Below are positions 10,586-63,182 of a stretch of 64,000 bases of DNA, in pieces. The notes beneath the pieces were generated by a model. The model worked only from the letters and a program-made list of their open reading frames with translations, did not search any database and was not told where the DNA came from. The stretch lies in assembly GCA_009833045.1 (NCBI GenBank), contig WUUP01000005.1, positions 248,001-312,000 of the forward strand, read 5' to 3'. This DNA is from Saprospirales bacterium GYS_P2D. Its GTDB lineage: Bacteria > Bacteroidota > Bacteroidia > Chitinophagales > Saprospiraceae. Made by a program: the position numbers and the translations under genes. The number at the start of each line of letters is the position of its first letter. The stretch's first letter is position 1.

Positions 10586-11320
10586 ATGAACTGGAAGAGA
10601 TCGCACATACTGATCGGTGTAGTACTCCTCGTACTCCTCATCGATCAAGCTGTCAAAATATATATAAAGACTAATCTAAGTTACGCCACAGGATTCGAGA
10701 TATTCGGATTAGACTGGGCTCGCATTCATTTTGTTGAGAATGAAGGTATGGCATTCGGTATCACCTTTGGAGATAAGTGTATCGGACCTACTCGGGCTGA
10801 TGGTAGCTGTGCCGGACTGATGCTCACTCCAGCCACTGGTAAGTTAATCTTGAGTACCTTCAGGATAGTGATGGTGGGATTTTTGTTTTACCTCATCAGA
10901 GAGCTGTACAAGGCGAAAGAACCATTAGGTCTTTTGATCAGCTTTTGCTTGATTTTCGCAGGAGCTATTGGAAATATCTTAGACAGTGCATTTTATGGAT
11001 TGTTATTTTCTGAGTCTTATCATCATGGGACTGTAGCGACATTTATGCCAGAAGGTGGTGGATATGCTCCATTTTTGCATGGCAAAGTTGTAGATATGTT
11101 TTACTTCCCGATGGTTGACACGATCTTGCCTGACTGGGTACCTTTCTATGGAGGTAAGCGCTTTGAGTTTTTCAGGCCTGTATTCAACGTGGCCGATGCC
11201 GCTATCTCTATCGGAGTAGCGATTATTCTTTTGTTCTATCGTAAATTCTTATTGAGCAAGTCTGACGACAAAACTCAAACTCAAAATGATAGTACGGTCA
11301 GTACGTCGGTGGCTGAATGA
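10586..11320 (+). CDS. lspA: Lipoprotein signal peptidase (signal peptidase II)
   Basis: LspA is the inner-membrane aspartic protease that removes the signal peptide from prolipoproteins after lipidation. The 244-residue protein has four predicted membrane segments and the family motifs VENEGMAFG, GNILDS and FNVADA, which supply the two catalytic Asp residues. It is longer than the roughly 160-residue E. coli enzyme because of an inserted loop with GGGYAPFLHGKVVDMFYFP, which is normal in Bacteroidota. I chose ATG 10586 over an in-frame TTG at 10571. Its substrates would include the DUF4249, rhodanese and chaperone-type lipoproteins in this window. Confidence 0.95.
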   Translation: MNWKRSHILIGVVLLVLLIDQAVKIYIKTNLSYATGFEIFGLDWARIHFVENEGMAFGITFGDKCIGPTRADGSCAGLMLTPATGKLILSTFRIVMVGFLFYLIRELYKAKEPLGLLISFCLIFAGAIGNILDSAFYGLLFSESYHHGTVATFMPEGGGYAPFLHGKVVDMFYFPMVDTILPDWVPFYGGKRFEFFRPVFNVADAAISIGVAIILLFYRKFLLSKSDDKTQTQNDSTVSTSVAE

Positions 11321-11864: not shown

Positions 11865-11906
11865 AAAAAAATGTAATCTGTTGAACTTTGCCCGCAGATT
11901 ACATTT
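11865..11906 (-). terminator. 12-bp perfect inverted repeat between the two ArsR genes, terminator-like
   Basis: The arms AAATGTAATCTG (11869-11880) and CAGATTACATTT (11895-11906) are perfectly complementary with a 14-base loop. Read on the minus strand the hairpin is followed by a run of T, as in an intrinsic terminator for the upstream ArsR gene. The AT-rich stem, and its place upstream of the second regulator gene, leave open that it is instead an operator. Confidence 0.5.
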
Positions 11907-34552: not shown

Positions 34553-34592
34553 AGAAAAGTGCTTGTTACCATGTAATGAGCACTTTTCTTTT
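34553..34592 (+). terminator. Intrinsic terminator after ftsH that covers the start codon of the next gene
   Basis: The perfect 11-base stem AGAAAAGTGCT (34553-34563) / AGCACTTTTCT (34579-34589) is followed by TTT. An inner TTAC/GTAA helix is also possible. The ATG of the DUF1295 gene (34576-34578) lies in the loop side and its codons 2-5 form the right arm. Confidence 0.75.
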
Positions 34593-37689: not shown

Positions 37690-38283
37690 ATGATACATCC
37701 AGGGACTCGAGGCTTGATATTTGACTTAGATGGGACATTAGCAGATACTATGGGCTTACATGTATCAGCTTGGGAGATCGCCGGTCGACATTTTGGAGTA
37801 GATATCGATGGGAGTGAGATATACAAGCTGGCAGGTATTCCGACCCAACCTATTGTAGAGATATTTAATGAGCGCTATGGGTGGTCACTCGACCCAGTGG
37901 CTTTTGAAGAGAAAAAAGATGAAGCTTATCTGCAGGTCAAAGAAGATGCTGGGCAAATCAAGCCAGTACAAAGAGTGCTCGACATCGCTCATGCGCATCG
38001 AGATGTGCTCCCTATGGCTGTGGGGACTGGTAGCATCAGAGAGGATGCAGAGATGGCGCTAAGTGACATGGGGATTACTTCATGGTTTAGAGGATTAGTC
38101 ACGGCAGATGATGTCGAGCGACCTAAGCCTGATCCAGAGACTTTTGTCAGATGTGCTGAGATCATCGATATAGACCCTCAGTATTGCCAGGTATTTGAGG
38201 ATGGTCCTAAAGGTATCGAGGCTGCTCTGTCTGCCGGCATGGTAGCGCTGAATATAGTGACATGGGAGATGCACCTACCGTAG
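37690..38283 (+). CDS. HAD-superfamily phosphatase, beta-phosphoglucomutase-like
   Basis: The 197-residue product from ATG 37690 has HAD motif I FDLDGTLAD, a cap region (about 17-85), motif II around VGTGSIRED, motif III KPDPETF and motif IV EDGPKGIEAA. This pattern fits the beta-phosphoglucomutase/phosphatase subgroup; the substrate is not clear. The open frame extends far upstream to 37438 but that part is antisense to nadE and non-coding in character. The gene stands alone. Confidence 0.87.
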   Translation: MIHPGTRGLIFDLDGTLADTMGLHVSAWEIAGRHFGVDIDGSEIYKLAGIPTQPIVEIFNERYGWSLDPVAFEEKKDEAYLQVKEDAGQIKPVQRVLDIAHAHRDVLPMAVGTGSIREDAEMALSDMGITSWFRGLVTADDVERPKPDPETFVRCAEIIDIDPQYCQVFEDGPKGIEAALSAGMVALNIVTWEMHLP

Positions 38284-38392: not shown

Positions 38393-38442
38393 CCCATTTT
38401 AGCGAAAGCGACCATTAAAATAGCGATATCGACTAAAATGGG
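38393..38442 (+). promoter_or_regulatory. Operator-like repeats upstream of tetR-icmF
   Basis: CCCATTTTAG (38393-38402) and CTAAAATGGG (38433-38442) form a perfect 10-base inverted repeat with a 30-base spacer. Between them CCATTAAAATAGCGA (38412-38426) resembles CCATTTTAGCGA (38394-38405) with three extra bases, so there are three related units. The right arm ends one base before a -7 element (38444). A TetR regulator is encoded at 38478, so these are probably its operator sites. Confidence 0.55.
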
Positions 38443-38443
38443 T

Positions 38444-38451
38444 TAAATTTG
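38444..38451 (+). promoter_or_regulatory. Predicted -7 element of the tetR-icmF promoter
   Basis: TAAATTTG matches TAnnTTTG exactly and lies 26 bases before the tetR start. No TTG was found at the usual upstream distance. Confidence 0.5.
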
Positions 38452-42533: not shown

Positions 42534-42539
42534 ATTTGC

Positions 42540-42612
42540 GCTCCCACAAGGACTTGAACCTTGGACCCTCTGATTAACAGTCAGATGCTCTAACCAGCTG
42601 AGCTATGGAAGC
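42540..42612 (-). tRNA. tRNA-Asn (anticodon GTT)
   Basis: The 73-base cloverleaf on the minus strand has acceptor arms GCTTCCA / TGGGAGC (one T-G pair), the D-arm AGCTCAGCTGG, anticodon stem TCTGA/TCAGA with loop CTGTTAA (anticodon GTT at 42576-42578), and T-loop GGTTCAAGTCC. CCA is not encoded. It sits between icmF and htpG. Confidence 0.95.
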
Positions 42613-62999: not shown

Positions 63000-63170
63000 A
63001 TGAGCAAAAAGAAATTCGTCCTACGAGTCGATGAGCATACGATGGAGCTGATAGAGAGGTGGGCGGTAGATGAATTTAGAAGTACGAATGGTCAGCTCGA
63101 ATGGATCATAGTCAAAGCACTAAAAGATGCTAAGCGATGGAAAAATAAATCAAACAAGGAAGCCGAATAA
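63000..63170 (+). CDS. Small Arc-like ribbon-helix-helix protein
   Basis: This 56-residue basic protein begins MSKKKFVLRVDEHTMELIE and continues WAVDEFRSTNGQLEWIIVKAL, followed by a Lys-rich tail. A first beta strand (KFVLRVD) and two helices match the Arc/MetJ ribbon-helix-helix fold, and the RSTNGQLEWI stretch is like small Arc-family proteins of Bacteroidota. It may bind DNA, although in this position it could instead work with the SPFH protein encoded 13 bases upstream. The stop codon lies in the loop of the terminator hairpin. Confidence 0.8.
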   Translation: MSKKKFVLRVDEHTMELIERWAVDEFRSTNGQLEWIIVKALKDAKRWKNKSNKEAE

Positions 63171-63182
63171 GTCGGCTTCCTT
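63156..63182. terminator. Bidirectional terminator hairpin at end of RHH gene
   Basis: The perfect 11-base stem AAGGAAGCCGA (63156-63166) / TCGGCTTCCTT (63172-63182) has a five-base loop holding the end of the TAA stop. The T-run is weak on the + strand and moderate on the minus strand, where the PDZ gene ends at 63194, so it may serve both. Confidence 0.65.

Follow-up and report, generated by a model that had tools for sequence, protein, structure and literature searches.

In mycobacteria, the branched-chain keto-acid operon accD1-bkdC is repressed by the TetR-family protein BkaR (Rv2506/MSMEG_4718), as stated in excerpts of the original report (PMC3920632). Judged by the same excerpts, BkaR resembles the TetR protein encoded in the window (the whole 64-kb stretch of DNA analyzed here) in that it is an autoregulated TetR encoded beside acyl-CoA carboxylase genes, in that its conserved palindrome is present in two copies in the promoter, and in its half-site TTAnT/AnTAA, which recalls the TTAGT/ACTAA of the operators described below. 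However, BkaR belongs to another phylum, its 16-bp core GTTAnTn4AnTAAC (PMC3920632) places the half-sites 4 bp closer than in TTAGT-N8-ACTAA, and its site is symmetric, whereas the form in the window is one base short on one side. A single match to this core, with one mismatch, occurs in the window (1.49 expected); it lies at position 10843 and not at the tetR-icmF site. Likewise, TTAnTn4AnTAA was not found in the 200 nt upstream of the window's tetR. Because the spacing differs and the motif is absent from the window site, BkaR is regarded as an analogue and not as a family assignment. A second described regulator, LiuQ, acts on branched-chain amino-acid use in betaproteobacteria and shares with the window protein the TetR family and the pathway class, according to excerpts of the report (PMC5343134).

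No title or abstract beginning retrieved from open-licence PMC with the terms searched describes the window operator or an IcmF-linked TetR operator. The excerpt of PMC5207742 contains primers, and in those of the IcmF paper PMC10481361 'tetr' is part of 'tetramer'. The predicted local TetR operator is of an ordinary kind, here with defined bases and conservation. Its shortened, directional form and the link of that form to residue Tyr42 appear to be a new variant, and the shortened directional operator is the part that a specialist may find surprising.

The tetR-icmF locus and its promoter

The N-terminal helix-turn-helix of the window TetR matches TetR_N (PF00440) with 38.4 bits (cut-off 24), and its C-terminal match to PF13972 scores 20.7 bits, below the cut-off of 25. 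A structure model (pLDDT 92.5) predicts an all-helical TetR-like fold, for which the closest PDB match is 3nnr (TM 0.78/0.83, Z 19.4, rmsd 3.0 over 198 residues). In this model, residue 42 ends the helix that we take to be the recognition helix. A (pseudo)palindromic operator near its own gene, as in other members of the TetR family, is indicated by sequence conservation only. IcmF scores 1767.6 bits against the equivalog NF045497 (cut-off 1500), and the 14-nt gap between the two genes points to a single tetR-icmF transcript. Coordinates are given in Table 1.

Table 1. Features of the tetR-icmF region, numbered along the window
Feature	Coordinates	Strand	Remarks
Left arm of inverted repeat	38393..38402	+	Overlaps the conserved operator by its last three bases only (TAG)
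Operator 1 (predicted), TAGCGAAAGCGACCA	38400..38414	+	15-bp pseudo-palindrome with one mismatch, CCA for CTA
Operator 2 (predicted), TAGCGATATCGACTA	38421..38435	+	Exact 15-bp pseudo-palindrome, 21 bp from operator 1
Right arm of inverted repeat	38433..38442	-	Overlaps the conserved operator by its first three bases only (CTA on the + strand)
Putative Bacteroidota -7 element, TAAATTTG	38444..38451	+	TAnnTTTG match, 8 nt past operator 2
TetR-family regulator, 217 aa	38478..39131	+	Proposed repressor, with Tyr42 in the putative recognition helix (36-42)
icmF, fused isobutyryl-CoA mutase/GTPase, 1114 aa	39146..42490	+	14 nt past tetR, probably same operon

An earlier note had singled out the intergenic region for a perfect 10-base inverted repeat, CCCATTTTAG and CTAAAATGGG, and had read it as a site of autoregulation. 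We confirmed that the arms, 30 nt apart, are fully complementary, that a third related unit, CCATTAAAATAGCGA (38412-38426), lies between them, that TAAATTTG follows one base past the right arm, and that the genes downstream encode a TetR regulator and a fused IcmF. When the 194-nt intergenic region was dinucleotide-shuffled 2000 times, such a repeat arose in 16 of the shuffles, and the window contains four places with perfect 10-bp arms separated by a gap of 3-60 (eight overlapping listings); the inverted repeat by itself is therefore mildly unusual. TAnnTTTG arose in 200 of 2000 such shuffles. Apart from this repeat, perfect inverted arms of at least 10 bp are found in the window at 11869-11906, 34553-34589 and 63156-63182.

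The same region holds a 13-nt direct repeat (38400-38412 and 38421-38433; 85% identity, 21-bp spacing), which the earlier note had missed. Set against related loci, the conserved unit predicted at the window is TAGCR-N4-YGACTA, present in two copies of direct orientation, and not the 10-bp arms; these are the outer edges of the two predicted copies together with non-conserved flanks.

Past the sites, TAnnTTTG is matched, a sequence that we take to be the Bacteroidota -7 consensus. Its start falls 0-25 nt past the operator in 18 loci out of 72, compared with a mean of 1.4 in shuffles, and within 40 nt past it in 27 (shuffled mean 2.15), where the shuffles preserve base composition only and related rows are non-independent. 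Among these 27 loci the distance is 8-10 nt in 12, including the window with 8 nt, and 28-31 nt in nine. Since no TAnnTTTG is found within 40 nt after the operator in the other 45, the promoter link holds for part of the loci only. Inspection by eye showed no matching -33 element at the window promoter, and a sigma-70 promoter scan gave no prediction at the tetR-icmF site. The earlier note had also considered a B12-linked signal. A cobalamin riboswitch upstream of icmF was not found: a tRNA (42539-42612) was the only Rfam match at gathering score between 36000 and 44000, so that a B12-linked riboswitch is unsupported.

Predicted operators upstream of related tetR genes

Related TetR loci were collected by a profile scan of public genomes and represent the best 80 of 94 relatives. 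Neighbouring genes were recognized with 11 reference proteins, names such as mccB or pccA being assigned from domains and context. Among these best 80 of 94, the recognized neighbours are mccB/mccA, pccA/pccB/bccp/mcm, etf, acyl-CoA dehydrogenase, enoyl-CoA hydratase or icmF, and a few loci have none.

After removal of identical TetR proteins and of upstream regions shorter than 150 nt, 108 loci were reduced to 90, and all 5-mer dyads with gaps of 0-14 were counted without bias in the 300 nt upstream of these non-redundant tetR genes. The top dyad was TAGTC-N6-GACTA, present in 47 of the 90 regions. It occurred at most once in any of 20 shuffled sets, in which the best of any dyad reached 7. 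The strict 15-bp pattern was present in 8 of the 90 (mean 0.0 in 10 shuffled sets).

Sorted by operator type, 92 rows comprise 13 short, 59 long, 6 weaker long, 12 without a site and 2 without upstream sequence, counts that are inflated by close relatives such as the Aquimarina rows. A further 16 loci consist of 15 copies of rows already used and of L009, which was inadvertently left out. The short form, TAGCR-N4-YGACTA, precedes tetR in the window and in L099-L103, L105, L106, L109, L114, L118, L122 and L126. The claim that the intergenic site serves autoregulation can be upheld in part. The adjacent TetR very probably has its operator there, on the tetR-icmF promoter, as a related motif, short or long, precedes most of the homologous tetR genes examined and the window form recurs in close relatives; the units, on the other hand, had been misassigned.

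The 16-bp operators of an mcc-linked TetR clade, TAGT[CT]-N6-GACTA (found for instance in L098), resemble those of the window in their TAG...GACTA ends, in their position before tetR and in the linked acyl-CoA catabolic operon. Unlike the window operators, they are one base longer and symmetric, and nearly all rows carry His42 in place of Tyr42. The window site does not match this pattern but carries the 15-bp form, in which the right half is identical and the left half has one base fewer.

Strict 15-bp sites number 14 in the 26.7 kb (26,700 b) lying up to 300 nt upstream of tetR, against none in the remaining 809,335 b of the loci, and all 14 share a single orientation, that of the tetR strand. 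The 16-bp form occurs 58 times within 300 nt upstream of tetR and at nine places outside it in the same loci. Of these nine, eight precede an mccB match (six in the order mccB-mccA-tetR, two in L152, where mcc genes and tetR are convergent), and one is in L107. Seven of the 12 rows without a site are accounted for: in L116 and L128 a 16-bp site spans the chosen start codon, and in L150, L153, L159, L160 and L168, with the order mccB-mccA-tetR, the site is upstream of mccB and absent before tetR. No site was found in the fragment of L029, which stops short of mccB, and no recognizable one upstream of tetR in L127, L016, L017 and L018. For L127 we offer no explanation, while in L016-L018 the recognition helix reads [NG]RRNIAYH[FY] instead of SRGNLTYHF. 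These comparisons demonstrate the conservation of a predicted operator family tied to the TetR family, with the 15-bp form in the window's clade.

Sites paired 20-21 bp apart are found in the window, L109 and L104, all three beside icmF. In L104, which carries the 16-bp form, the second site of the pair is a 15-bp-like copy in the opposite orientation with one mismatch. Wider two-site spacings occur in L162 and L098. In L103 and L106, an inverted CGCTATT half-site lies downstream of the 15-bp site and upstream of tetR; it forms a perfect 10-bp inverted repeat with a 26-nt spacer in L103 and was seen by eye in L106.

The earlier note had proposed to look for conservation upstream of tetR-icmF pairs. 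icmF was detected in 244 of 298 Saprospiraceae genomes (E 1e-200 or better), and among 29 other icmF loci, taken together with at most 1.5 kb of flanking sequence per side, a TetR like that of the window is present in five (L059, L066, L067, L068 and L070), so that a test on such pairs alone would rest on few of them. An operator lies within 400 nt of icmF in only two of the 29 (L045 and L059, the latter with a divergent TetR), a count for which L045 and L051 extend merely 305 and 68 nt upstream of icmF. The icmF arrangement is accordingly limited to lineages with a linked TetR. The 16-bp site of L045 is 72 nt before icmF and near the contig end, where a divergent TetR gene may have been cut off.

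Length of the predicted operator and residue 42 of TetR

A TetR tree was constructed from 88 rows, with a midpoint root for drawing only; L147 and L161 (without upstream sequence) and L031 and L032 (long branch) were left out. It splits into two sides with support of 100/100: the window's clade of 19 rows, in which the neighbours are pcc, mcm, icmF or acd, and a side of 69 rows with mostly mcc. The short form is present in 13 rows of the former and in none of the latter, and the label 'short' requires at least three changes on the tree. All 13 short-form rows have Tyr42 and 57 of 59 long-form rows have His42, the exceptions being L104 and L155, which combine Tyr with the 16-bp form. L009, from outside the 92-row set, has His42 and the long form. 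The same combination is found again in a subclade nested within the window's clade (L108, L112, L115, L123 and L133).

Many further alignment columns also separate the short-form from the long-form groups, and for this reason the co-change of Tyr42 and operator length is supported but unproven. Tentatively, and with considerable doubt, we suggest that in the window's TetR clade one half-site may have lost one base (TAGTC to TAGC), giving a 15-bp directional site that goes with Tyr instead of His42. That Tyr42 could be the cause of the short form is put forward as a hypothesis, with few independent changes behind it. If causal, the pairing would document how, in nature, a repressor dimer and the spacing of its operator have changed in concert.

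Predicted autorepression and other readings

We propose, with a probability of roughly 0.8, that the adjacent TetR has a double operator at 38400-38435, predicted to serve autorepression of tetR-icmF with release by an acyl-CoA. One TetR dimer would bind each 15-bp site, both sites being on the same face of the helix, 21 bp apart. Operator 2 would span the stretch directly upstream of the -7 element, so that binding there would block RNA polymerase at the tetR-icmF promoter. A branched or short acyl-CoA, arising from the breakdown of valine, isobutyrate or related compounds, would bind the C-terminal domain of TetR; the ligand-bound protein would then leave the DNA, and TetR and IcmF would be induced together. 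TetR binding, repression, cooperativity and ligand are what we infer in this scheme, the acyl-CoA signal being suggested by gene neighbourhoods. As the paired sites are of a slightly shortened kind common to close relatives, TetR probably turns its own operon off, and autorepression by dimers on two same-face promoter sites with acyl-CoA release would be the simplest reading.

It is improbable that the sites bind another regulator instead of the adjacent TetR, for example its paralogue from the same genome. This paralogue (L098; G000:C1:46000-58000) heads a methylcrotonyl-CoA-carboxylase-like operon, tetR-mccB-mccA-ech, and its own operators have, like those of the window, GACTA as right half and TAG/CTA as ends. 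The exact 18-bp TTAGTC-N6-GACTAA is found twice in the 4.95-Mb genome, both times before the paralogue tetR (G000:C1:51754 and 51807, 53 bp apart). The genome, in which the window belongs to G000:C24, holds both operator forms, each before its own tetR. This arrangement argues against binding by the paralogue, as does the tracking of operator length with TetR clade (15-bp form in 13/19 against 0/69). A third, distant TetR match in this genome, G000:C11:755422-756036, reads through one TAG.

Very improbable is an operator formed by the 10-bp inverted repeat itself, as a dyad with a long spacer that one TetR dimer would bind or two would loop. Its arms are perfect, at a frequency in shuffles of 16/2000, and as a single strand the repeat has a more favourable fold than any of 200 shuffles (z -3.63). 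The noted units CCATTTTAG/CTAAAATGG, whose conservation the earlier note had proposed to check, recur upstream of just one of 89 other related tetR genes (L146, outside the window's clade), leaving 88 of 89 upstream regions without the 9-base arm core. Moreover, the arms reach into bases that differ among relatives: the flanks of 15 aligned 15-bp sites, those of the window excepted, consist predominantly of A to the left and AAA to the right rather than of CCCATTT/AAATGGG. Least probable of all, a transcription terminator of the HAD-family phosphatase gene ending at 38283 would fit a hairpin-forming sequence between two genes that is followed by TTAAATTT, but the repeat starts about 110 nt past the stop codon, its loop measures 30 nt and its stem is AT-rich, it has no entry in a terminator scan (loops of 3-8 only), and a terminator would leave unexplained why 15-bp sites precede tetR in other loci.

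With the two 15-bp sites as operators of the adjacent TetR, the exact bases at the icmF promoter are now defined for testing. More broadly, the sites yield a predicted operator code, and the TetR family concerned would, judged by gene neighbourhood, control acyl-CoA catabolism of the leucine/valine/propionate type in Saprospiraceae and in some further Bacteroidota. The natural pair of 15- and 16-bp operators in one genome may help to understand in what way dimeric repressors cope with altered half-site spacing.

Searches of the same genome for additional sites gave no enrichment. The single unit CCCATTTTAGCGA (up to 2 mismatches) had 73/65 matches against 79/61 for the reversed control, and TAGCRNNNNYGACYA had 30 against 49. 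Beyond the window pair, 3 of 28 TAGCRNNNNYGACYA matches lie outside ORFs of at least 120 aa (L189, L202 and L204), those of L202 and L204 preceding genes for Flavodoxin_2 and AhpC-TSA proteins. As TAGCRNNNNYGACYA is below its control and so few matches are outside ORFs, no regulon is claimed. In eight genomes, TAGCRNNNNYGACTAAA gave 19 matches, distributed over seven of them, against 7 for the reversed control; 10 of the 19 are beside a tetR of the same family, 8 inside ORFs and 1 intergenic. This last match (L219, 1501-1517) is a perfect 15-bp-type site about 130 nt before a gene of 368 aa with no linked TetR, possibly an extra regulon member.
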